41,458 nucleotides of DNA, from NCBI RefSeq assembly GCF_030373545.1, contig NZ_JAUDCO010000012.1:1-41458 (forward strand). The letters run 5' to 3'. The position numbers were made by a program, and so were the translations under genes. The notes beneath the pieces are model-generated. The model was not told the origin of the DNA and ran no database searches. It saw nothing but the letters and a program-made list of their open reading frames with translations. This DNA is from Collinsella tanakaei (GTDB lineage: Bacteria > Actinomycetota > Coriobacteriia > Coriobacteriales > Coriobacteriaceae). Every line of letters starts with the position of its first letter. Position 1 is the stretch's first letter. Below, piece after piece: positions 6,579-18,027 of the stretch.

Positions 6579-8375
6579 ATGGGTCTAATGGACGGCCTCG
6601 ACATCTTGGACGACGCGCAGGGTGCATCCGGGTGCAACGCGTCTGCTGACGCGCCTGCGTCCACCCCTGCATCCGACGCCGCGGGTCGCGTTCCCACGCC
6701 GACGGCGGGCGCCGTTTCCGCTCCCGCATCTGCGCCGAAAACACGCATGGTTCCGGCCGGAAGCCATTTTGCCGGGGTTCGTGCGTCGCAGGCGTCCGAC
6801 CCCGTTGCCCGCCCCGCCGGTTCCCGCTTTGCGGGCCCTGCGCCTGCAACGGCCCCTGCAGCGGGGCGCCCGGCCGGTTCGCGCTTCGCCTCCGCAAACG
6901 CCGCGCATCCCGCTTCGATGCCGACTGCGCCGGCTGACTCCGCGACGCCCCAGGCGACGGCTCGCCCGGCGGGAAGGCGCTTCGCCTCCGCTTCGGCAGC
7001 CGGTCAGCCCGCTGCCGGCGCTGCGGCAGATGCCCGCCCCGCCGGTTCCCGCTTCGCGTCCGCCGGGGCGGCCGCTCCGGCCCGTCGCGCCGCTGCCTCG
7101 CCTATGACGACCGAGCAGTGGGTCGCCATCGCGAGCTCCTCCAAACGCAATGCGGGCTCGGCGGCAACCTCAGGTCCGCGTCCGTCCGCTGTTTCGGCCC
7201 GTACGCCGGCTTCGGCTCCGGCGGCATCCGCGGGCACCATGCCCGCGTATCGCACGGCGGCGCCCCAGGCCACCCCGGCCGTGCCCGCGTCTGCCCCCGC
7301 CGCGTCCGCGGTCCCGGCGCCCCAGGCCGCACCCGCCGCAACCGCGCCCACGCCCCAGGCGGTCTCGCGTACCTTCAGCCGCCGCATCCCCGCGCTCGAC
7401 AACCAGCCCGCCGATCCCGAGAACGACACCTCGGTGACCGCATCCATCCCGGTCTCCGCGCAGGCTGCCCGCACCGCACGGGCCGCCCGCACCGATCGCG
7501 CCGCAGCTTCCGACGCCGCGCGCTCCCATGCCGTCCAGAGCCCGGTCGCCGTAGGCGGCGAGCCTCCCCGCGGTCCGCGCGGCAAGCGCCGCTCCCGCGA
7601 TGACGGCGGCGAGCGTCGCGGCGGCTCGAAGCTCTCCATCGTTTTGATCGTGCTCGGCATTATCCTGCTTATCGTCGCCGCGGGCATCTTCGTGTCCGCC
7701 CAGATCGGCTACCGCCAGGCGCAGGAGGCCTACAGCGAGATCCAACAGTACGCGGTCTCCTCCGACGAGGGCGACGGCGTCCCGGACGTCGACTTTGACG
7801 CGCTTGCCGAGATCAATCCCGACGTTGTGGGCTGGCTGTATATCCCGGGCACCGTGGTCAACTACCCGGTCGTCCAGACCGATGACAACACCACGTACCT
7901 GACCACGCTGTTCGACCTGTCGGGCAACGGTTCGGGCACGATCTTCATGGACATGGACGACACCGCGCCGGGTATGGTCGACCAGCAGACCACGTTGTAC
8001 GGGCACCACATGTACGACGGCTCCATGCTGAAGGTCATCGACAACACCACCAACCAGGCCGACTTCGACAAGATCGGGAAGGTCTACTACATCACGCGCG
8101 ACGCGACCTACACCATGACGCCGCTGTTCACCGCGCAGGTCGAGGACACATACCTCGACGCGCGCACGCCTAACTTCACGGGTGAGGGCGAATCGCTCCA
8201 GGCCTACCTCGAGGACATCTATACCTACGCCAAGGCGCAGGCGCCCGACGCTCAGGAGCGAATCGGCTCGACCGACAAGGTCATGAGCCTGATCACCTGC
8301 GCGGGCGAGATCATCCCCCGCACGACGCGCGCCGTCATGGTGCTGTCTGTGGACGCCGAGACCGCGCGGCAGTAG
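6579..8375 (+). CDS. Class B sortase with long Ala/Pro-rich repetitive cytoplasmic N-terminus
   Basis: This is a membrane-anchored cysteine transpeptidase predicted to attach surface proteins or pilins to the cell wall. The C-terminal sortase domain (about 400-598) has the class B look (VGWLYIPGTVVNYPVVQ). It has candidate catalytic His 476/477 in TLYGHHM, Cys 574 in LITCAGE, and Arg 581/584. One membrane segment spans about 352-374. The first 350 residues are predicted cytoplasmic and disordered, rich in Ala and Pro. They hold five copies of a short motif close to RPAGSRFA at about 58, 78, 97, 129 and 153. Usual class B sortases are about 220-260 aa, so the N-terminus is exceptional. No LPXTG-type substrate gene is adjacent. 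A GAGAAAGG site precedes the ATG. Confidence 0.9.
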   Translation: MGLMDGLDILDDAQGASGCNASADAPASTPASDAAGRVPTPTAGAVSAPASAPKTRMVPAGSHFAGVRASQASDPVARPAGSRFAGPAPATAPAAGRPAGSRFASANAAHPASMPTAPADSATPQATARPAGRRFASASAAGQPAAGAAADARPAGSRFASAGAAAPARRAAASPMTTEQWVAIASSSKRNAGSAATSGPRPSAVSARTPASAPAASAGTMPAYRTAAPQATPAVPASAPAASAVPAPQAAPAATAPTPQAVSRTFSRRIPALDNQPADPENDTSVTASIPVSAQAARTARAARTDRAAASDAARSHAVQSPVAVGGEPPRGPRGKRRSRDDGGERRGGSKLSIVLIVLGIILLIVAAGIFVSAQIGYRQAQEAYSEIQQYAVSSDEGDGVPDVDFDALAEINPDVVGWLYIPGTVVNYPVVQTDDNTTYLTTLFDLSGNGSGTIFMDMDDTAPGMVDQQTTLYGHHMYDGSMLKVIDNTTNQADFDKIGKVYYITRDATYTMTPLFTAQVEDTYLDARTPNFTGEGESLQAYLEDIYTYAKAQAPDAQERIGSTDKVMSLITCAGEIIPRTTRAVMVLSVDAETARQ

Positions 8376-8522
8376 GCCGGGCGCCCGAGCTCCGCGCAGC
8401 GAAGGGCACGCTCGTCCGACAGCGCGAACCCAAGGCGGGTCGGTCGGACCTGCCTGGCCCGTGGCACTGCGCCGCGCCGCGCCCGCGAAACCGCCTGGCT
8501 ATCCTTACGGCTCCGCCGACCG

Positions 8523-9353
8523 CTATCTGGGCAGCGTGCCCTCGTAGCGGCGCTTGAGCGTGCGAAGCCGTTCAAGTTCGTCGGTCGCCGTCCCGTCGAG
8601 ATGGGCCGCGACGGCGACGACGAGTGCGTCGACCAACGCGATGGCGCTGGTCATGGAATGGTATTCGAGCGGTTCGCCCCGGTACACGACAAGCTCGATG
8701 TCAGCGTGGGCGTTGGCCTCGCGCAGCGCCCTGCTGGTAAAAAGCACCGAAGTCGCGCCGACGGCGTTCGCATGCTCGATGGCTACGCGGCTTTCGGCAG
8801 GCAACCGTGAGAACCCGAAGGTCACCAGCGCGCTGTCCCGACGCGCGTGCACGAGCCCCTCGAACAGTTCAGATCCTCCCGCCGGCAGCATCTCGACGCG
8901 CTTCCCGAAGCGCGCCAAGCGAAAGCGCAGCAGCTCGGCGCAGGCAACGGCAGCGCCCTTGCCATGGATGAGCACGAGCTTTGCATCTGCCAGCGCGCGT
9001 GCGGCGCGTCCGAACGCATCGGCGTCGAGGCGTTGCGCCGTGATGTCGAGGTATCCCTGCTGCCCCTTCAAAAAAGCCGCAGCGGATGACGTCCCGCCCT
9101 CGATGCTTGCCGCGATCTTCTCTGCCGGCCCCAACGTACTTGCCGCAACTGCCCCCTTGAGCTCTTTAAAATCCCGAAAGCCGGCGTGCCGTGCAAACCG
9201 GGAGACCGTGGCATCAGATACGCCCAGGCGTGCGGCAAGCTGCTGGATGGGCATGACCAAAAACTCGGTGGGGTTGGACGAGATGAAGTCGATGATGGCG
9301 TGTTCTGCCTGGGTATAGGCAATTCCTTGCTTGAACAACGATATCGGCGACAT
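8523..9353 (-). CDS. MurR/RpiR-family transcriptional regulator
   Basis: The protein has an N-terminal RpiR-type helix-turn-helix (about residues 1-75, with VSDATVSRFARHAGF as the recognition part) and a C-terminal SIS sugar-phosphate binding domain (about 105-245). At 276 aa the length is normal. Members of this family sense phosphorylated sugars and usually control adjacent catabolic or uptake genes. It is the last gene on the minus strand of the ECF transporter-PHP cluster, 125 bp after the PHP gene. The likely regulon is therefore that cluster. The ligand cannot be read from the sequence. Confidence 0.92.
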   Translation of the reverse strand: MSPISLFKQGIAYTQAEHAIIDFISSNPTEFLVMPIQQLAARLGVSDATVSRFARHAGFRDFKELKGAVAASTLGPAEKIAASIEGGTSSAAAFLKGQQGYLDITAQRLDADAFGRAARALADAKLVLIHGKGAAVACAELLRFRLARFGKRVEMLPAGGSELFEGLVHARRDSALVTFGFSRLPAESRVAIEHANAVGATSVLFTSRALREANAHADIELVVYRGEPLEYHSMTSAIALVDALVVAVAAHLDGTATDELERLRTLKRRYEGTLPR

Positions 9354-9423
9354 ACGGGTCCTTTCATGGGAAGGGCAGATGAGCGCTGGCCGCTCGGCTC
9401 GGCGGCGACGGCGGGGCCGGTAG

Positions 9424-9490
9424 CCCTATGCGACGGCGGAGCCGGCGGCCCTATGCGGCGACGTCGGCGTCAGCGATCCTATGCGGCAGG
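9424..9490 (-). repeat. Three short direct repeats spanning the PHP gene stop codon
   Basis: On the minus strand the bases encoding the last Ala codon and stop of the PHP gene (GCCGCATAG) recur twice more just downstream, at intervals of about 28 and 25 bp (GCCGCATAGGG, GTCGCATAGGG). This fills the PHP-rpiR spacer. It probably arose by local duplication. No function is evident. Confidence 0.6.
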
Positions 9491-10276
9491 GCCGGCGAGA
9501 ATCGTCTCCACGTAGCTGCCGCCCAAGCGGTCGATCTCCTTGAGCGCGCGCTTGAGGGTGGCCGCCGTAAGGACGCGGAACTCAAGGTCCTCGGCGAACT
9601 CGATCTGATAGGCGCGCTCGTGCACCTGCTCGAACAGCTCATCAAACGTCGAGCAGGGGTGCGCCATGCGCGTGACGACGCAGCCGTACTGGAACGCCTG
9701 GTGCGTGTCCGACCCCGAGACAACGGGAACACCGCCTATGCGCTGGGCGAAGGCGTAGGTCCGCTCGACGGTGCGCGTGCGGTCGTGGCTCAGGTCCTTA
9801 CCGTTCAGGTCGACAAACTCAAAGCGACGCAGCTGGTCGCAGGTGAGCTCGGGGATGCGCCCCGGGGCGCGGAAGGGGTGGCCTGCCCCAAAGTGCAGCC
9901 CGCGGCGCTCCACCTCATCGGCCAGCTCATCGAAGGGCAGGAACGCATCCTTCGCTTTATGCGGTTCAAGCGCGCGGTTAAACGCCAGGATGTCCTCCAT
10001 GGGGCCAAGCACGAGGGTGTGGCCGCGCTCAGCGATGTCGACCTCCATGCCGGGAAACACCAACAGGCCGTTGACGTCAAAGGCGTCGCCCACGCGCGGA
10101 TAGCGCGACGAGATATCGGCGTACACCTGCTGGAAGCCCTGGGTGTTGAAATGCTCGGTGAGGCAAAGAGCGTCCAGCCCGGCACGCTTTGCCGAGGCGA
10201 ACAGCCAGTCGGTGTAGTCGGGCGAGAAGGCGAGGTACTTGGCGAGTTTGCCGTGGGTATGGAAATCGATGATCAC
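9479..10276 (-). CDS. PHP-domain metal-dependent hydrolase/phosphoesterase
   Basis: This 265-aa protein has the PHP metal-binding motifs in order: DFHTHGK at the N-terminus, TEHF near residue 43, GAGHPF near 130, and SGSDTH near 190. PHP proteins hydrolyse phosphoesters using two or three metal ions. The GTG at 10276 is chosen because GGAGG lies 7 bp upstream and because GTGA overlaps the stop of the preceding EcfT gene. A start upstream of this would reach into that gene. The 4-bp overlap implies translational coupling, so the enzyme may act on what the transporter imports. Substrate unknown. Confidence 0.88.
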   Translation of the reverse strand: MIIDFHTHGKLAKYLAFSPDYTDWLFASAKRAGLDALCLTEHFNTQGFQQVYADISSRYPRVGDAFDVNGLLVFPGMEVDIAERGHTLVLGPMEDILAFNRALEPHKAKDAFLPFDELADEVERRGLHFGAGHPFRAPGRIPELTCDQLRRFEFVDLNGKDLSHDRTRTVERTYAFAQRIGGVPVVSGSDTHQAFQYGCVVTRMAHPCSTFDELFEQVHERAYQIEFAEDLEFRVLTAATLKRALKEIDRLGGSYVETILAGPAA

Positions 10277-11112
10277 GAGAGAACCTCCAGGATGCGGGGT
10301 GCGGCGAAGCAGAGCGCGACCCATAGCGCGCTAACGGTTGCGAAGATGGCCTCCCGACGTCCGGCGTGTAGCGACGAGAGCTTGATCTTGAGCACCTTCA
10401 TGTTGGTCGCGGCGTAGCGATACCCCTTGAGCTCAAGCGCCTCGACGGTGGTGCGGGAGCGCTTGGCGGTGTTGAGCATGAGCGGATAGAACGACTGCAC
10501 GATGGTCTTCACCTGGTAGATAATCCAACGCACCTTTCCACCGAGCGTCTCGTGCGCGGGCGCGCGCCCGCGCAGGCGGAAGGAAAGCAGGATGTTTTGC
10601 AGCTCCTCCATGAGGATGGGCAGGATGCGGTAGGCAAAACCGATCGAGAAGGACAGGCGCTCGGGGCACCCGAACCACAGCAGGCCGTTCGAGAGCTTGT
10701 CGGGATCGAGCCCCGAAAACACCGTGATGCTTGCAAGCGAGACCGTGGCGACTTTGAGCGTCAGCACGAGCAGCGGGATGAGCGTCGACAGATTGCCGCC
10801 GAAGAACAGCGACACGATGAACATATAGCCCGTCTGCGAGAAGACGCCGAGCGCGAAGACGAACAGCACGAGCGGCGCCACGCGCGCCAGACGCGTCGTG
10901 GCGGCGGTGAACAGGAACATCCCCAGCAAGATGGCGACATCGCTTATGAACCACGGCGCCAGGCCGAAAAAGAGGTACCACAGCAGAAGGACGCGCGGAT
11001 CGAGCTTGGCGATGGGCGTGTCATCGTTGCCGTAGGCGTTTTTAAGCACCTGGTCGCGCAAAAAGTCGATGGAAACCTTATCCATGACGTTTTCAGAGAG
11101 CTTTTCGATCAT
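10273..11112 (-). CDS. ECF transporter transmembrane (T) component
   Basis: EcfT couples ATP hydrolysis in the cytoplasm to movement of the substrate-binding S component. The 279-aa protein has several hydrophobic helices in the first 150 residues. Two cytoplasmic coupling motifs of the EcfT type follow: SFRLRGRAP near 175 and EALELKGYR near 230. Its ATG overlaps the ATPase gene stop (ATGA), and its own stop overlaps the PHP start codon. It belongs to a four-gene coupled operon S-A-T-PHP. Specificity lies in the S component and is not predictable from this subunit. Confidence 0.9.
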   Translation of the reverse strand: MIEKLSENVMDKVSIDFLRDQVLKNAYGNDDTPIAKLDPRVLLLWYLFFGLAPWFISDVAILLGMFLFTAATTRLARVAPLVLFVFALGVFSQTGYMFIVSLFFGGNLSTLIPLLVLTLKVATVSLASITVFSGLDPDKLSNGLLWFGCPERLSFSIGFAYRILPILMEELQNILLSFRLRGRAPAHETLGGKVRWIIYQVKTIVQSFYPLMLNTAKRSRTTVEALELKGYRYAATNMKVLKIKLSSLHAGRREAIFATVSALWVALCFAAPRILEVLS

Positions 11113-12848
11113 GCGTCATCACCTTCCCGTCTGCCCGCCTGCCGCTCGCGCCATGCGGGGAAGCAGGCAAGGAAGTCATTTAGGGTATAGCAGGCCGCGC
11201 TGCAGTCGAGCGCCTGCCCCATCGCGAAGATCTCGGGTGGGCGGATGCCCGAGCGGGCGACCACCGCGGCGTCCATGAAGATCTCGTCGGGCGTGCCGTC
11301 GCCGATGACCTCGCCGTCGCACAGCACGATGATGCGGTCGGCAAACTGGCATACGAGCTGCATGTCATGGGTGGCGATGACGACGGTGTCCGTCACGCCG
11401 CGCAGGTCCGCCACGAGCCCGATGATCTCCTGACGCGTTCCGATGTCGAGGTTGGCGGTCGGCTCATCCAACAGCAGCACAGGCGGGTCGAGCGCAATGC
11501 CGATGGCGAGCGAGGCGCGTCGCATCTGGCCTCCGGACATCAGGCGGCCATCGCGGTCCGCGAGCTCAGCCAGGCGGAAGCGCGCGAGCAGCTCCTCCGC
11601 GCGCTGCCGCGCGTCCGCGACACCGCGTGCGCGCATGGCGAACTCGATATCGGCGCGGATCGAGTCCTTGATAAACATCTGCTCGGGATTTTGATAGACA
11701 AGCGAGATGGTCTCGGAGAGCTCGTCGGGCCCTAAGTCGCGCGTCGGCGTGCCGTTGAGCAGCACTTCGCCTGTCTGCGGTTTGACCAGGCCGCACATGA
11801 GCTTCATGAGCGTGGATTTTCCGGCGCCGTTGGAGCCGACGAGTGCGATCTTCTCACCCTGGCGGATGTCAAGGTCAAGGCCGCGGAAGACGTTTCGGGG
11901 TTCGCCCTTGACGCTGCGGTAGCTCACATCGACGCCGCGAAAGGACACCGCCGGAACGCTTGAGGCTTCCACCTGCTTCTTGCAATCCGCGCTATGGGGC
12001 GGCACGAACGGGACATTCGCAAACGCAGCGAAGCCCTCCTCGACGGTCGTGGGGAGCGGCGCATGCTCGGCGAGCGCCCCGACGCGCTGAAGCTCACGGC
12101 CGGCGAGGGCGATCTGCGGCGGGTGCACGTCGCTCGCCTCCAGGTCCTCGATTCGCTGGAGCGCCTCGTGCGCGGGAAGGGTCCAAGCGATGGCGCCGTC
12201 GTGCATGAGCGCAGCCGACGAGCAGTACTCGGCGATGAAGTCGGTATGGTGCTCGATGACGATGATCGTCTTGCCGTGGTTTTCGTTGAGATCGCGCAGG
12301 ACCTCGTACGTCTGGCGTGCGTGGTAGGGGTCGAGCTGGGCGACCGGCTCGTCAAGCACGATGATGTCGGGGCCGAGTGCGATGGCGCCCGCAAGCGCGA
12401 GGAGGTGCTTTTGGCCTCCGGACAGCTGCCAGATGTAGGAGTCCGCGCGCTCGGCGAGGCCGCACAGCTCGAGTGCGCGCATGCCGCGCTCGAGATAGTC
12501 GTCAAACGCGTAGTTCAGGCAGGCGAAGGACGCCTCGTCCAAGACGGTAGGGCGCACGAGCTGGTTTTCGAAGTCCTGGTAGACGTATCCGATGCGCTGC
12601 GCGAGCTCGCCGATTTGCGCGGTGGCGGCATCCGTGCCACACACCGTGATGGACCCGGTGAGGTCGCCGACGATGAACTGGGGAATGAGGCCGTTCATCG
12701 TCTTGCAGAGCGTGGACTTTCCGCAGCCGTTCGCGCCCATGATGGCGAGAAAATCGCCCTCCGGCACGTCGAGGTCGACATGCCGGAGGGTCGGGGCTGC
12801 TGCTCCGGGATAGGTGAAGGTGACATCCGTCAGGGTTACAGCAGACAC
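11109..12848 (-). CDS. ECF transporter ATPase, fused double ABC domain
   Basis: Two ABC ATPase domains sit in one 579-aa chain, equivalent to EcfA1 plus EcfA2. Domain 1 (about 1-235) has Walker A GANGCGKST, signature LSGGQ and Walker B IIVLDEP. Domain 2 (about 300-540) has GSNGAGKST, MSGGQ and VLLLDEP. Both domains appear catalytically complete. The start is a GTG at 12848 with GAGGAG upstream, 12 bp after the S-component gene. The linker of about 65 residues is less conserved. This fused form is common for ECF transporters with dedicated S components. Confidence 0.93.
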   Translation of the reverse strand: MSAVTLTDVTFTYPGAAAPTLRHVDLDVPEGDFLAIMGANGCGKSTLCKTMNGLIPQFIVGDLTGSITVCGTDAATAQIGELAQRIGYVYQDFENQLVRPTVLDEASFACLNYAFDDYLERGMRALELCGLAERADSYIWQLSGGQKHLLALAGAIALGPDIIVLDEPVAQLDPYHARQTYEVLRDLNENHGKTIIVIEHHTDFIAEYCSSAALMHDGAIAWTLPAHEALQRIEDLEASDVHPPQIALAGRELQRVGALAEHAPLPTTVEEGFAAFANVPFVPPHSADCKKQVEASSVPAVSFRGVDVSYRSVKGEPRNVFRGLDLDIRQGEKIALVGSNGAGKSTLMKLMCGLVKPQTGEVLLNGTPTRDLGPDELSETISLVYQNPEQMFIKDSIRADIEFAMRARGVADARQRAEELLARFRLAELADRDGRLMSGGQMRRASLAIGIALDPPVLLLDEPTANLDIGTRQEIIGLVADLRGVTDTVVIATHDMQLVCQFADRIIVLCDGEVIGDGTPDEIFMDAAVVARSGIRPPEIFAMGQALDCSAACYTLNDFLACFPAWRERQAGRREGDDA

Positions 12849-12860
12849 GCGTCGGCTCCT

Positions 12861-13703
12861 CTACGCGTTCTTAAGCTGAGCGGAGCGACGTGCCCAGAAG
12901 GCGGCGACGAGTGCGACGACGGCCGCCACGGCGATGCCGGCGAAGATGGCCGTCTGGCTTTCGGCCCACTCAGCTTCCCACTCGATGATGGACATGCCGG
13001 CCTTGGAGACGCAGGCGACCACGATGGCGACGATGAAGCCCACGACCGACCAGCCGATGACACGGCCGCTCAGGGCAGGAGCCGCATCGTTGTCAGCCGT
13101 GCGCGGCTTGCAGCCCAGCAGCGGCTCGATCTTGCCGTACAGGCGCGGCACCAAAAATAGGGTGGGCAGCAGGCAGAACAGGATACCCGAGAAGCACAGA
13201 TCGTTCAGGAACGCGAAGCCCTCGGTGGCAAAGACCGACTCAGGGAGGCCTGCGACGGCTTCGAAGTCGTCCACGGCGACCTGGACCTTCACGATGTCGA
13301 CCACCGCGCTCATGGCGAGCTGGATGGCCGGACCGGTGATAGCGGCGATGGCGACCTGCTTGACGCTCTTGGGGTTGCGAACCATGAGGCCGGCGATGTA
13401 GACGCCGATGGTCACGGTCAGGAACTTCTCGAGCTCGCCCAAGCCGCCGAACTGGCCAAGCATGATCTCGGAAAACACAAGCTCACCGGTCGCGGCGCCT
13501 AGGGCAGCGGACAGCGGGTCGAAGAGCATGGCCAAGGTGAGCGGGATAAACAGGAAGAACTCGACGGACAGCTCGACGATGCCGATCTGAATCGACGGAA
13601 TGAGCTCGGAGATGAGCGTGGCCAAACCGTACAGGGACATGGATAGGACGAAGACCATCAGCTTCTGGGGCTGCGTGGCCCCACGTTCGGCGATAGATGA
13701 CAT
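12861..13703 (-). CDS. ECF transporter substrate-binding (S) component, unknown substrate
   Basis: The 280-aa membrane protein has about six hydrophobic segments, the last near residues 250-270 (FAGIAVAAVVALVAAFWA). The first gene of the operon, it is placed to be the S component that binds the substrate at the membrane. The ATG at 13703 has AGAGGGG upstream; longer in-frame upstream starts lack support. The ATPase gene starts 12 bp after its stop. I cannot match it to a vitamin S family such as RibU, ThiT or BioY. The adjacent RpiR regulator and PHP hydrolase suggest a phosphorylated or sugar-like ligand, which is inference only. Confidence 0.8.
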   Translation of the reverse strand: MSSIAERGATQPQKLMVFVLSMSLYGLATLISELIPSIQIGIVELSVEFFLFIPLTLAMLFDPLSAALGAATGELVFSEIMLGQFGGLGELEKFLTVTIGVYIAGLMVRNPKSVKQVAIAAITGPAIQLAMSAVVDIVKVQVAVDDFEAVAGLPESVFATEGFAFLNDLCFSGILFCLLPTLFLVPRLYGKIEPLLGCKPRTADNDAAPALSGRVIGWSVVGFIVAIVVACVSKAGMSIIEWEAEWAESQTAIFAGIAVAAVVALVAAFWARRSAQLKNA

Positions 13704-13750
13704 AGCGGTTCCCCTCTTTCGTGGAATGCGGTGCATTGCCGGCATGCTCA

Positions 13751-13781
13751 AGATTAGGGGTCTACCTGCCAAAATTGTTAA
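13751..13781 (-). promoter_or_regulatory. Possible promoter of the ECF-PHP operon
   Basis: On the minus strand TTAACA (13781-13776) and TAATCT (13756-13751) are spaced 19 bp apart, about 50 bp before the S-component start. Just upstream the bases ATGAAAATAA occur twice (13794-13803 and 13823-13832), and GAAAATAAGCTTTC (13796-13809) is a small inverted repeat that could be an operator. The rest of the 320-bp divergent gap holds a TACAAT (13941-13946) facing the MoaE-like gene. Confidence 0.35.
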
Positions 13782-14024
13782 ACGCTTCGTAAGATGAAAA
13801 TAAGCTTTCGCGGGACGCGTGCATGAAAATAAAGAGGTCGTGGCGCGACGGGCGGTGCGCCTACGTGGGGTCAGTCGTGCAAATGAACGATGTGACGTCT
13901 TTACGGATGGTTTACAAAGCGGACGCGGAGTCTTCGGCGGTACAATCGGGCCGTTCTGTGTGGCGGCGCGGCGCGGGCGCGTCCGGGCGTGCTGCCAGCG
14001 GTAAATCGACCGAAAGGTGCTCCT

Positions 14025-14435
14025 GTGGCAACCATGCCCTCTATCGACTCCTGGCTCGCCGAGGCCAAAGCCGACCCGTCGGCGGATTCGTGCGGTATGT
14101 ACCTTGTCCACAACGGAACGGTGCGCGCGACGCCTAAATCCGAGGTGCGCGGCAGCGAGGCGCCACCGTGCGGGCTGCGCCCGGGCGAGCGCGTCGCAGG
14201 CATGCGCTTCTCCTACGATGCGGATGCGGTCGATGCCGCGGTGGCCGCGGCGCGCGCAATGCCTGGCATCGGCTACGTGCGCGTCTGGCTCAACGAGGGC
14301 GAGCTTGCCGTGGGCGACGACATCATGCTCGTGCTTATCGGCGGCGACATCCGCCCGCATGTGGTCGAAGCCCTCCAGGCGCTCGTCTGCCGGCTCAAAG
14401 ACGAGTGCGTCACCGAGGTCGAGCTGCCGGCATAG
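14025..14435 (+). CDS. MoaE-like protein, probably not a functional molybdopterin synthase subunit
   Basis: The 136-aa protein resembles the large (catalytic) subunit of molybdopterin synthase. The clearest match is VRVWLNEGELAVGDDIMLVLIGGDIRPHVVEA, shown here as short pieces: YVRVWLNEGELAVGDD followed by RPHVVEALQ. The family His-Arg pair reads Ile-Arg, and the C-terminal Lys-x-Glu region (WKxE in E. coli) is missing because the protein ends just after RLKDECVTEVELPA. It may have another role. The GTG at 14025 is preferred because GAAAGGTG lies just upstream; the in-frame ATG at 13989 has no site. No other moa genes are near. Confidence 0.65.
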   Translation: MATMPSIDSWLAEAKADPSADSCGMYLVHNGTVRATPKSEVRGSEAPPCGLRPGERVAGMRFSYDADAVDAAVAAARAMPGIGYVRVWLNEGELAVGDDIMLVLIGGDIRPHVVEALQALVCRLKDECVTEVELPA

Positions 14436-14680
14436 CGCCTGCGCCGTCGGCGTGGCGATTGCGGTGCCGCAGGGCACCGCGCTGCTGGCATAACGCTTGC
14501 GCAGCAGGCGTCCACACCTCGACGACGCGGCGCACATGTTCCTTCTGGTCCTTCGGGGCACCCTCATCCCTTCGCCTACCGGCGATCATGCCCCAATTTT
14601 CTCCTGGCCCCTTTTGGGACACGCTGGCCCCTCGGGGCGCCGATCATACGCCTCTTTTTCCACGCCCCCATTTGGGACGT
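14436..14680. other. Gene-free gap between convergent genes with degenerate repeats
   Basis: No gene is seen. The bases around the stop codon of the MoaE-like gene (CCGGCATAGCGCCTGCGC, 14428-14445) recur in altered form at 14486-14503 (TGGCATAACGCTTGCGC), where CTGCTGG and CAGCAGG flank them as a hairpin. On the minus strand GTCCCAAATGGGGGC and GTCCCAAAAGGGGCC are two degenerate copies of one motif (about 14623-14680). These may be worn palindromic repeats or termination signals for the convergent genes. Confidence 0.45.
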
Positions 14681-15982
14681 CTACGCCTTCGGCGCGACGG
14701 AGCCGGTGTCCATACGGCCGGAGTTGTCCGGATGGATGGTCATGCTCTGGAACCGGTGCTCCATGTAGCTGTTGTCAAAGTGGCTGGCATAGAACTCCTC
14801 GACCGGCGAGGAGGGGGCGATGTCGCTGACGCGCTCGAACCAGCAGTCCAGCGCCTGCAGCGTCATGACGGCGTTGACCAGCATGAGCACGGCGCACAGC
14901 GAGGTGAGGGAGTAGCGCGCCTTCCAGGGGATGAGGTTGATGAGCTTGAGCAGACGCGGAAGCAGCAGTTTGATCCACACGAGACCCAGGATGCCCCAGA
15001 TGCTCGCGAACATGGTCGAGGTGCGCCCGCCGCACAGGGCGGCGATGGGATCGGGAATCACCCCGAAGATCATCGCGCCGGTGTAATCCCAGGCCACGGC
15101 ACCAAAGGCCGTCTGCATGAACCAGCTGACCGCGTACTCGAACGCGCCGCCGATCGCGGCGCTCACCAAGAAGATGATGAGCACGTTTTTGCGGTAGAAG
15201 CGGTTGAGGGCGGTGGTCATGAGCACGGCGCCCACGCCGTAAATGGGGGAGAAGGGGCCGAACAGCAGGCCCGCGCGGTCCTGGTATACGCCGGGGTCGA
15301 CCACCGTCATGTGCCAGATGACCTCGAGCACGAGCCCGATGACGCTACAGACCATGAAAACCCAGAACAGGTTGAAGAAGTTGAGCTTGATGTAGCCCTC
15401 GCCGGTCGTATCGCGGCCGAGCATGCCCTCCTCGGCAGCTTCGCGGTCCTGCATGTCCTGCAGACGTTTCTGCAGCTCGCGCTCCTGGCGAAGCGAGGGG
15501 TCGATTGTGACCGAGATGACGAGCAGGATGACGAGTTGGATTGCAGGTTGGATGAGCTGGTAGCCGATACCGTCGAGCATGATGGAGATGATGATCTGCG
15601 CGAAGGTGATGGCGATGAGCACCTCCGACCAGATGGCGGCATTGCGGCGACGGTTCTTGAGCAGCGAGTAGCCGAAGCGGACGAGCAGCGCGGAGCCGGC
15701 GAGCGAGAGCAGCACGTTCAACGAGGTCACGACGATGGTGAGCGTCGGGTCGCGGGCTACGCTGAGCAGGCTGGGGTCGCGCACGAGGACGAGCGTCACG
15801 AGCACGATGAGGATGACGCCCAGCGCGAGCGTGGCCAGGCCGCTCAGCAGGCACAGGATGCCGTAGACCTTGATGAGGCGGGGTATGCGCTTGCGCTCCT
15901 CGGGCGTCTCGACCTTGGGGTCGAGGTCGTTGCCGGGAAGTCCCATGTCTTGGCGCGGGGCGGTGTCGGTTGTCGTGCTCAC
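14681..15982 (-). CDS. CmpB/DUF1113-family multi-pass membrane protein
   Basis: The C-terminal half (about 200-400 of 433) matches the putative ABC-transporter permease family CmpB (PF06541). Features include YGVGAVLMT, FLVSAAIGGAFEYAVSWFM and WDYTG. The N-terminal half adds three or four membrane segments and a charged cytoplasmic stretch (RQERELQKRLQDMQDREAAEE) likely to be helical. The GTG at 15982 is chosen because AAGGAG lies 9 bp upstream; an ATG at 16045 has no site. Despite the family name no ATPase is adjacent, and its real function is unknown. Confidence 0.8.
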   Translation of the reverse strand: MSTTTDTAPRQDMGLPGNDLDPKVETPEERKRIPRLIKVYGILCLLSGLATLALGVILIVLVTLVLVRDPSLLSVARDPTLTIVVTSLNVLLSLAGSALLVRFGYSLLKNRRRNAAIWSEVLIAITFAQIIISIMLDGIGYQLIQPAIQLVILLVISVTIDPSLRQERELQKRLQDMQDREAAEEGMLGRDTTGEGYIKLNFFNLFWVFMVCSVIGLVLEVIWHMTVVDPGVYQDRAGLLFGPFSPIYGVGAVLMTTALNRFYRKNVLIIFLVSAAIGGAFEYAVSWFMQTAFGAVAWDYTGAMIFGVIPDPIAALCGGRTSTMFASIWGILGLVWIKLLLPRLLKLINLIPWKARYSLTSLCAVLMLVNAVMTLQALDCWFERVSDIAPSSPVEEFYASHFDNSYMEHRFQSMTIHPDNSGRMDTGSVAPKA

Positions 15983-16106
15983 GGGTTCGCGCTCCTTATC
16001 AGCGGTGTGCGCTGCATCATACCCCACCGCACCCGTCTCATTCACGGGACCCGCGACATGACGGGCGCGCGGAACCAGGGCGGGTGGGGGCGTAATTGCT
16101 CGGCGG

Positions 16107-16141
16107 ATGGGTCAGATGGGGACGTGTTCCATCTGACCCAT
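16107..16141 (+). repeat. Family A palindromic repeat, most symmetric copy
   Basis: ATGGGTCAGAT (16107-16117) and ATCTGACCCAT (16131-16141) form a perfect 11-bp inverted repeat around the family core GGGGACGTGTTCC. It lies 9 bp before the long perfect hairpin and upstream of purF. Confidence 0.88.
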
Positions 16142-16150
16142 TCCCGCCCT

Positions 16151-16239
16151 GGGCGTAATTTCACCCTAGGGATTTTGTTGCATCGGGCAGCCTTCGGGGC
16201 TGCCCGATGCAACAAAATCCCTAGGGTGAAATTACGCCC
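16151..16239. repeat. Perfect long hairpin, 42-bp arms with 5-base loop
   Basis: The arms 16151-16192 and 16198-16239 are exact reverse complements separated by TTCGG. Each arm contains CCCTAGGG, itself a palindrome, and TTTTGTTGCATCGGGCAGCC. GGGGGCGTAATT also occurs at 16086-16097, on the other side of the family A unit, so an older element may have been split. It lies about 140 bp before purF and opposite the CmpB gene start. No T-tract follows, so a standard terminator is unlikely. Together with the family A unit it accounts for the roughly 400-bp gap between the CmpB gene and purF. Confidence 0.9.
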
Positions 16240-16380
16240 CCCATCTGCAAAAACCTGCACTCTAGTCCCGCGCCGCCATACCGCTGCGTTAAGAATCCGC
16301 TGCAAGGCCCGACGTCGCGTCGGTGTGCATGCAGCGCGTGCCATAATGTGCGTGTTGTCGACAGGAAGGCGGAGAAATCC

Positions 16381-18027
16381 ATGGCAGACGCGATGCTCAA
16401 CGATGATGTCCTGCACGAGGAATGCGGCGTCTTCGGCGTGTGGGCCCCGGGGCGCGATGTTGCGCGCATCACGTATTTTGGCCTCAAGGCCCTTCAGCAC
16501 CGCGGTCAGGAATCCGCCGGTATCGCCGTCGGCGACGGCGGGACGGTCATGGTCCGCAAGGATCTTGGCCTGATCGACCAGGTGTTCTCCGATGCGGACC
16601 TATCGTCGCTTCCCGGCCAGCTCGCCGTCGGCCACGTGCGCTACGGCACGGCGGGCGCCAAGAGCTGGGAGGCTGCGCAGCCCCACCTCTCCACGATCGG
16701 CGACGTCATCACCGCGCTCGCGCATAACGGGACCCTCGTCAACACCGATGAGCTGCGCCGTCAGCTCATCGAGCTCGGCGTCCCCTTCCTGTCCAATTCG
16801 GATTCCGAGGTGGCCACCAAGCTCATCGGCTATTTCACCCAGCGCTCGCATCACCTGCGCGAGGGCATCCGCAAGACCATGGAGCTCATTCGCGGCGGCT
16901 ACGCCATGACGCTCATCAACGAGCAGGCGCTCTATGCGTTCCGTGATCCGCACGGCATCCGTCCCCTCGTGCTCGGCAAGATCCTAGCAGGCGATGGGTC
17001 AGATGGGGACGTGTTCCATTCAACCCATTCTGGGTCAGATGGGGACGTGTTCCATCCAACCCATTTCTGTCCTGACGGCTCCGCCGCCGGCTGGGTTGTC
17101 GCGTCCGAGACCTGCGCCCTCGACATCGTCGGCGCCCATTACGTGCGCGATATCCGGCCCGGCGAGATCCTGCGCATCTCGGCCGACGGGCTCGTCTCGG
17201 AGCAGGGCGTCCCCGCGGCGCCGGAGAGCGCCGAGTGCATCTTCGAGCAGGTCTACTTCGCGCGCCCCGATTCCATCATGGGCGGCAAGTCCGTCTACGC
17301 GTGCCGCTACGACATGGGCCGCCGCCTGGCGATCGAGGCGCCCGTCGACGCCGACATGGTCATCGGCGTGCCGGATTCGGGCATGCCGCCGGCCGAGGGC
17401 TACGCGCGCGAGAGCGGCATCCCGTTCGGCGAGGGCCTGATCAAGAACCGCTACGTTGCGAGGACGTTCATCCAGCCCACCCAGGAGCTGCGCGCGATGG
17501 GCGTGCGCATGAAGCTCAACCCCTTGCGCGACAACATCGCCGGCAAGCGCCTGGTGGTGATCGACGACTCCATCGTCCGCGGCACGACGATGGTGCAACT
17601 GGTCAAGATGCTGCGCGATGCGGGCGCGGCCGAGGTGCACGTGCGCATCAACTCGCCCGAGGTCGTGTGGCCCTGCTTTTACGGCATCGATACCGACGTG
17701 CAGGCGCAGCTCATCAGCGCCAATCGGTCGGTCGAGGAGATTCGCGCCTTTATCGGCGCCGACTCGCTGGCGTTCTTGTCCGTCCAGGGGCTGCTCGCCT
17801 GCGTTCCCGCCCTCGGTGTCCAAGTGGGGGAGGATGGTCCTGCGCGGGGCTACTGCACGGCGTGCTTTACCGGGGTCTATCCGGTGGCCATCCCCGAGAG
17901 CTTCGGTCGCGACAAGTTCATGCCCGGCTACGATCCCTGCAATCTGACCGAAAACCCCGTGCTTCCCCGCGACGTCGTCGTCGAGAAGCGCTTCGATCAC
18001 AGCTGGGAGGCGGAGCACGAGGCGTAG
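16381..18027 (+). CDS. purF: Amidophosphoribosyltransferase with repeat-derived insertion
   Basis: This enzyme catalyses the first step of purine synthesis, turning PRPP and glutamine into phosphoribosylamine. It has an N-terminal class II glutamine amidotransferase domain; Cys15 in EECGVFG becomes the N-terminal nucleophile after propeptide cleavage. The C-terminal phosphoribosyltransferase domain has VVIDDSIVRGTT. It is the Bacillus type with likely Fe-S ligands in ECIFE, PCFYGID and YCTAC. The ATG at 16381 has GGCGGAG upstream. Residues 206-229 (GSDGDVFHSTHS then GSDGDVFHPTHF) are a tandem family A repeat translated in frame, between RPLVLGKILAG and WVVASETCAL, where relatives have a short loop. 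The frame stays open, so function is plausible. Confidence 0.95.
   Translation: MADAMLNDDVLHEECGVFGVWAPGRDVARITYFGLKALQHRGQESAGIAVGDGGTVMVRKDLGLIDQVFSDADLSSLPGQLAVGHVRYGTAGAKSWEAAQPHLSTIGDVITALAHNGTLVNTDELRRQLIELGVPFLSNSDSEVATKLIGYFTQRSHHLREGIRKTMELIRGGYAMTLINEQALYAFRDPHGIRPLVLGKILAGDGSDGDVFHSTHSGSDGDVFHPTHFCPDGSAAGWVVASETCALDIVGAHYVRDIRPGEILRISADGLVSEQGVPAAPESAECIFEQVYFARPDSIMGGKSVYACRYDMGRRLAIEAPVDADMVIGVPDSGMPPAEGYARESGIPFGEGLIKNRYVARTFIQPTQELRAMGVRMKLNPLRDNIAGKRLVVIDDSIVRGTTMVQLVKMLRDAGAAEVHVRINSPEVVWPCFYGIDTDVQAQLISANRSVEEIRAFIGADSLAFLSVQGLLACVPALGVQVGEDGPARGYCTACFTGVYPVAIPESFGRDKFMPGYDPCNLTENPVLPRDVVVEKRFDHSWEAEHEA
16995..17065 (+). repeat. Tandem pair of family A repeats inside purF
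   Basis: Two copies begin at 16995 and 17031 (TGGGTCAGATGGGGACGTGT), exactly 36 bp apart. The period is therefore 12 codons and the purF frame is kept. Each copy matches the intergenic family A units at 1691, 16107 and 18246 almost base for base, which indicates recent insertion rather than coding ancestry. Confidence 0.92.

Follow-up and report, generated by a model that had tools for sequence, protein, structure and literature searches.

Organization of the cassette

This study concerns a 41,458-nucleotide stretch of Collinsella tanakaei DNA (contig NZ_JAUDCO010000012.1; "the window" refers to this whole stretch) and, within it, a cassette of five genes on the minus strand at positions 8523-13703. 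These genes encode, in order, the S component, fused ATPase and EcfT of an energy-coupling factor (ECF) transporter, a PHP-domain metallohydrolase, and an RpiR-family regulator. Bit scores below are followed by the curated cut-off of the Pfam or NCBIfam model.

12861-13703, minus strand: S component, 280 amino acids (aa), new sequence family, with a predicted six-helix S core and two predicted C-terminal helices
11109-12848, minus strand: fused EcfA-EcfA' ATPase, 579 aa, matching PF00005 (ABC_tran) in two stretches, TIGR04520 (348.9 bits, cut-off 315) and TIGR04521 (341.3 bits, cut-off 330)
10273-11112, minus strand: EcfT, 279 aa, matching PF02361 CbiQ (48.6 bits, cut-off 25)
9479-10276, minus strand: PHP-domain metallohydrolase, 265 aa, GTG start, with invariant metal-ligand motifs
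8523-9353, minus strand: RpiR-family regulator, 276 aa, matching HTH_6 (47.8 bits, cut-off 28.3) and SIS (33.6 bits, cut-off 25), with an altered SIS loop

The ATPase and EcfT genes overlap in an ATGA (11109-11112) and the EcfT and PHP genes in a GTGA (10273-10276); 12 bp separate S from the ATPase and 125 bp separate PHP from RpiR. The likeliest start of the PHP gene is the GTG at 10276, as opposed to the ATG at 10324 given in a mechanical list of open reading frames (ORFs). Both the coordinates and the family matches bear out the unit of S, fused ATPase, EcfT, PHP and RpiR, with its ATGA and GTGA overlaps, that an earlier sequence-only reading of the window had described. The cassette EcfT is one of four CbiQ-family genes in this genome.

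Distribution and conservation

S was found in 6 of the 58 genomes searched, the window's own included, all of them in the same genus, and, at the level of the phylum, in 8 of 396 genomes, again counting the window's own. Within the genus, a MoaE-like neighbour gene is present in 30 of 39 genomes. The cassette lies between SrtB and MoaE in 6 of the 30 loci examined; in the remaining 24, SrtB stands within 1.5 kb of MoaE and the cassette genes were not found. With 6 occupied and 24 empty sites, the five-gene cassette is a discrete unit that is cleanly inserted or lost.

A scan of named genomes gave 204 relatives of S, of which the 80 best served as related loci (two of them, L039 and L042, share one genome). 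S, ATPase, EcfT and PHP are complete in 77 of these loci, and the gaps in the other three (L039, L090, L099) are contig ends. RpiR is present in 69, on the same strand in 39 and on the opposite strand in 30; of its 11 absences, 7 fall at contig ends and 4 do not (L053, L074, L077, L110). Neither of the two findings that would have spoken against the sequence-only reading was made: S matches no Pfam or NCBIfam family, and PHP is present in 77 of the 77 loci whose contig extends far enough. Weak or partial S matches were left out of these counts, namely an S-like gene with a fused ATPase in G108 (L030), where PHP was not found, a match at E 1e-4 with different neighbours in G691 (L130), and a match over only about 105 aa in G494 (L129).

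Median identities to the window proteins across Bacillota-labelled loci are 68.8% for S (n=68), 69.5% for EcfT (n=63), 57.8% for the ATPase (n=65), 54.5% for PHP (n=64) and 42.1% for RpiR (n=57). S is as conserved as EcfT and more so than the ATPase, which fits a strong constraint by the ligand, horizontal transfer, or both.

Poultry labels occur in the titles of 47 of the 80 nearest-relative records, across Coriobacteriia and Bacillota; this is a hand count with no baseline, and the 80 loci are those closest to one query sequence. Strains An7 and An100, the latter a Flavonifractor, are chicken caecum isolates according to the part of the source available (PMC6069880). A paper on expression in chicken anaerobes (PMC11204068) does not mention ECF, inositol, phytate or phosphatase.

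The importer

At E up to 1, NCBIfam gives no match for the window's S, whose only Pfam match is a 10.9-bit chance match; none of 54 S members matched a Pfam S-component family, and no PDB chain was found for S at E up to 10, either by single sequence or by profile. Its AlphaFold model is of medium quality, with a predicted local distance difference test (pLDDT) score of 70.9. When this model was compared with solved structures (VIA-align), the 18 best of the entries listed had Z 10.7-15.7 and root-mean-square deviations of 2.9-4.2; 17 of these are titled as ECF or S-component structures and one, 4huq, just as "a transporter". The 19th match was the vitamin B12 protein BtuM (Z 8.6), and the first unrelated fold appeared at Z 7.6. 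Foldseek gave probabilities of 0.51-0.99 against S components, but with E-values above 0.1. As modelled, S has the ECF S-component fold in a sequence family outside the named ones, and two more helices (213-247 and 251-279) are predicted beyond the core at low confidence.

To our knowledge, ECF systems all import, and their cargos known so far are chiefly vitamins and metals. The cassette shares the S fold (as modelled), two ATPase domains and EcfT with systems whose S components have been solved (ThiT, FolT, RibU, PanT, BioY). Unlike them, it has an S of unassigned family with two extra predicted C-terminal helices; its operon includes a fixed hydrolase gene, its regulator goes with a paired operator, and no Rfam riboswitch match lies upstream.

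The PHP enzyme and the hydrolase slot

Nine residues of PHP (H6, H8, E41, H42, E78, H86, H133, D190 and H192) are invariant in 53 sequences, and the metal-ligand motifs HxH, EH, E78, H86, H133 and DxH are intact. The window's protein falls just short of two Pfam cut-offs (PHP, 24.1 against 26.4 bits; PHP_C, 21.1 against 21.3 bits), and relatives exceed them (L228, PHP 32.0 and PHP_C 24.6 bits; L109, PHP_C 23.8 bits). Its predicted model has a pLDDT of 96.1, and the nearest solved structures among the entries listed are PsfC of the Pseudomonas fosfomycin pathway (Z 27.2; sequence match at E 3e-12), endonuclease Q (Z 21.0), and then predicted phosphoesterases. PsfC and endonuclease Q share the PHP fold and most of the metal-ligand motifs with the cassette enzyme, which is only 22% and 17% identical to them, respectively, and is linked to importers. 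The counterpart of His86 is Asn in PsfC but His in endonuclease Q, and this leans towards a hydrolase. The portion of a preprint available describes PsfC as a dinuclear non-heme iron enzyme whose substrate is 2-phosphonomethylmalate (PMC12871164), so the PHP fold alone is no proof of hydrolysis.

Other arrangements of PHP relatives were also seen. Those of L183-L189 have different neighbours, and among them the proteins of L184-L187, from other Bacillota, are shorter, more distant (23-27% identity) and encoded away from ECF genes. In L229 and L235, two PHP copies flank the S, ATPase and EcfT genes, one on each strand.

The enzyme beside the importer is variable in kind. Another class of the window's phylum, which we take to be the actinomycetes, carries S in 9 of 345 genomes, including the two distant ones among the 8 of 396 above. 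In these loci S, ATPase and EcfT are accompanied by a tandem HAD hydrolase (9 of 9) and by a LacI regulator (8 of 9), with neither PHP nor RpiR in any of the nine. The first HAD domain keeps its catalytic motifs (DFGG, SNAHSG, KPHP and GDT-DRD) in all nine sequences; Pfam assignment was run for two of the nine loci. Among the 80 related loci, 11 have an additional gene of the inositol-monophosphatase family (PF00459), a family that acts on phosphate esters. The gene lies between PHP and RpiR in 9 of the 11, while L040 and L063 rest on tblastn; the two of the 11 genes checked against Pfam score 210 and 217 bits. The hydrolase slot is thus refilled, with PHP either replaced by a tandem HAD hydrolase or joined by a putative inositol monophosphatase.

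The importer slot

The converse was found in Bacillota, where this PHP occurs in 12 of 329 genomes at E up to 1e-10. In one of them, G554, which lacks S, PHP and RpiR follow genes for a binding protein, a fused permease and an ATPase. The Bacillota family of G554 (148 genomes), which we guess to be Paenibacillus-like, has PHP in 50 genomes and S in 34, all within the 50 PHP carriers; the two lie on the same contig with start positions 2.9-3.8 kb apart, and 17 of these ECF-type loci were inspected directly (L126-L128, L226-L239). S without PHP occurs in 0 of the 148 genomes. In 15 of the 16 PHP genomes that lack S (loci L182 and L220-L225 among them), the binding-protein importer immediately precedes PHP-RpiR; the last one (L245) has an ECF remnant and a broken PHP frame. 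Judging from these gene neighbourhoods, the importer slot has been refilled as well, since either an ECF transporter or an unrelated binding-protein importer stands beside PHP-RpiR.

The binding protein matches 2-aminoethylphosphonate families in 12 of 12 members, though far under the cut-off (36.5 against 310 bits); its scan and alignment cover 12 of the 15 sequences (L246-L248 left out). The permease scores 133 against a cut-off of 593 bits for PhnU2, the ATPase 323 against 458 bits for PhnT2, and no AfuA family model is among the family matches of this importer. Searched by single sequence, the binding protein has the hexose-phosphate protein AfuA as its best PDB match (6e-4). These matches hint at an anionic, perhaps phosphorylated, ligand, without being proof of one. 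The importer shares its class of binding protein with the hexose-phosphate importer AfuABC and differs from it in the weakness of the match, in a profile that places iron-type proteins first, and in having its own PHP and RpiR.

Regulator and operator

The region upstream of S contains the following elements, to which no strand is assigned.

13796-13809: candidate operator palindrome GAAAATAAGCTTTC, main site, with a pattern conserved upstream of S
13823-13832: second half-site ATGAAAATAA, 29 bp from the first half-site

The sequence ATGAAAATAA occurs at both 13794-13803 and 13823-13832. Upstream of S, 13 of 14 Coriobacteriia (0.0 in dinucleotide shuffles) and 28 of 69 Bacillota-labelled loci (0.1 in shuffles) have the pattern GAAANNTWANTWNCA; an exact match is missing in the other 41 Bacillota-labelled loci and in all 7 loci of the HAD/LacI type. 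The spacing to the second half-site is exactly 29 bp in all 13 Coriobacteriia counted, against a mean of 0.02 loci at each other offset. Of the 28 Bacillota-labelled main sites, 18 have the half-site 29 or 30 bp away, against a mean of 0.44 loci for other offsets; the genomes are related, and these counts are therefore not independent. The palindrome and repeats singled out earlier as operator candidates are thus present, and in footprinting upstream of S they are conserved beyond chance. The paired operator in front of S is conserved, and RpiR is predicted to bind to it. Regulators of the RpiR/MurR type share HTH_6, SIS and an operator of the TGAAA...TTTCA type with the cassette regulator, which differs from them in its altered phosphosugar loop and in the two sites 29 bp apart.

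Two further modes of control were considered and rejected. For a wider regulon, a second credible operator was not found in the window's own genome, where the 15-mer TGAAAATAAGCTTTC has one exact site, that of the cassette, and one site with two mismatches that overlaps the end of an ORF. For a riboswitch, an Rfam search of positions 8000-16500 gave nothing upstream of S; its seven sub-threshold microRNA matches all fall on a hairpin at 16145-16246.

Function of the cassette

A phosphorylated cargo is probably imported by this system and then hydrolysed inside the cell. The likeliest cargo would be a sugar or polyol in phosphorylated form, or a phosphodiester of such a compound. The S, ATPase and EcfT proteins would form an ECF complex that imports a small phosphate-bearing organic compound, and PHP, encoded in the same overlapping operon, would hydrolyse it in the cytoplasm. 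Where present, the enzyme of the inositol-monophosphatase family may take off a further phosphate. Expression would be adjusted by RpiR through the paired operator before S, or by LacI elsewhere; both families usually answer to sugars. The importer is kept while the enzyme is swapped, and the enzyme is kept while the importer is swapped, which suggests that the cargo is probably a phosphorylated nutrient new to the ECF class. Coupled import and hydrolysis of a phosphorylated compound had been proposed from the sequence alone; this proposal is strengthened by the HAD replacement, the added inositol-monophosphatase-family gene and the importer swap, while the substrate itself we still infer. Phytate-derived inositol phosphates were considered as a hypothetical cargo, in view of poultry, soil and the inositol-monophosphatase-family gene.

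Several observations weigh against such a function. The SxSGxT loop with which SIS domains hold phosphosugars is not kept, the consensus of 68 RpiR sequences reading lFgF...E; the label "sugar-phosphate sensing" given to the regulator earlier is not supported in this respect, although its RpiR family is. The charged residues conserved in S are chiefly acidic, with few basic ones, and speak against a simple phosphate pocket. A sugar phosphate remains compatible with them, because in AfuA, according to the part of the report available, His, Asp and Glu hold the ring, and Ser and Thr hold the phosphate (PMC4546632). For PHP, the nearest solved relative, PsfC, converts a phosphonate and is not a phosphatase, and the best NCBIfam match is to the CehA/McbA metallohydrolases (NF038032), yet at 50.1 bits against a curated cut-off of 80. 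Non-phosphatases are also found within the HAD and PHP superfamilies. The profile of the alternative binding protein ranks iron-type binding proteins (5e-6) before AfuA (3e-4), and 69 of the 80 loci are without the inositol-monophosphatase-family gene.

Some of these points would be accommodated if the cargo were a non-phosphorylated micronutrient or conjugate (e.g., an ester, amide or carbamate) and PHP a hydrolase of another kind, resembling CehA/McbA. This is unlikely. The NCBIfam match would agree with it, the acidic residues of S would suit a cationic or polar cargo, and vitamins and metals are the usual ECF cargos; however, S matches no vitamin family, PHP gives way to a tandem HAD hydrolase in 9 of 9 loci, and a family acting on phosphate esters is added in 11 of 80.

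It is more doubtful still that the cargo is a phosphonate, with PHP catalysing a PsfC-like transformation and not the hydrolysis of a phosphate ester. The closeness of PHP to PsfC in structure and sequence and the 2-aminoethylphosphonate matches of the alternative importer, far below cut-off as they are, would agree with it. Against this, the invariant His86 corresponds to Asn in PsfC but to His in endonuclease Q, and the loci inspected showed no recognisable phosphonate genes beside the cassette. Oxidation of the PsfC type probably depends on oxygen, whereas most cassette carriers are presumably gut anaerobes, and we know of no phosphonate cleavage by either the inositol-monophosphatase family or a HAD enzyme with this motif set. 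Finally, it is highly improbable that PHP and RpiR lie next to an ordinary vitamin importer by chance: RpiR does vary in orientation and is missing in four loci despite room for it, but PHP is present in every locus where the contig reaches its position, and 50 of the 50 PHP genes in the Bacillota family above lie beside one of the two importers or an ECF remnant.

Returning to import and hydrolysis of a phosphorylated cargo, the chances appear about even that the cassette represents the first case of an ECF family serving a phosphorylated nutrient, with both slots refilled, by three unrelated phosphohydrolase folds (PHP, inositol monophosphatase and tandem HAD) on one side and two unrelated importers on the other. 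The fold and the modules are already known. In the open-access papers searched, nothing was found on the S family, on the hydrolase fixed to it and its replacements, or on the exchange of importers, and no on-topic paper was found among them that ties an ECF transporter to a PHP domain, RpiR, a sugar phosphate or an inositol phosphate.

Other features of the window

The cassette adjoins a gene for a class B sortase-like protein (6579-8375) with a long Ala/Pro-rich N-terminal half, which scores 133 bits against TIGR03064, below the cut-off of 153.75. On its other side, between a CmpB-like gene (14681-16045) and the next ORF, lies a perfect 42-nt inverted repeat with a 5-nt gap (16151-16239), the source of the sub-threshold Rfam microRNA matches. 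A 44-nt repeat is present in three copies (16108-16151, 16995-17038 and 17031-17074), two of them in tandem inside the ORF at 16348-18027, presumably an amidophosphoribosyltransferase, to which they add in-frame repeated residues. At up to one mismatch, the window holds 8 occurrences of the repeat's core, GGGACGTGTTCC, where 0.27 would be expected; these include the ones at 58, 1702, 1810, 18257 and 18361.

Biological significance

The cassette is conserved and horizontally patchy, and it points to a class of nutrient that ECF systems are not thought to serve. The exchange of its parts gives a short list of testable cargos, and the alternative importer, through its soluble binding protein, may offer a quick route to the ligand. 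Given the poultry labels among its carriers, the cassette may have a bearing on nutrition in the avian caecum.

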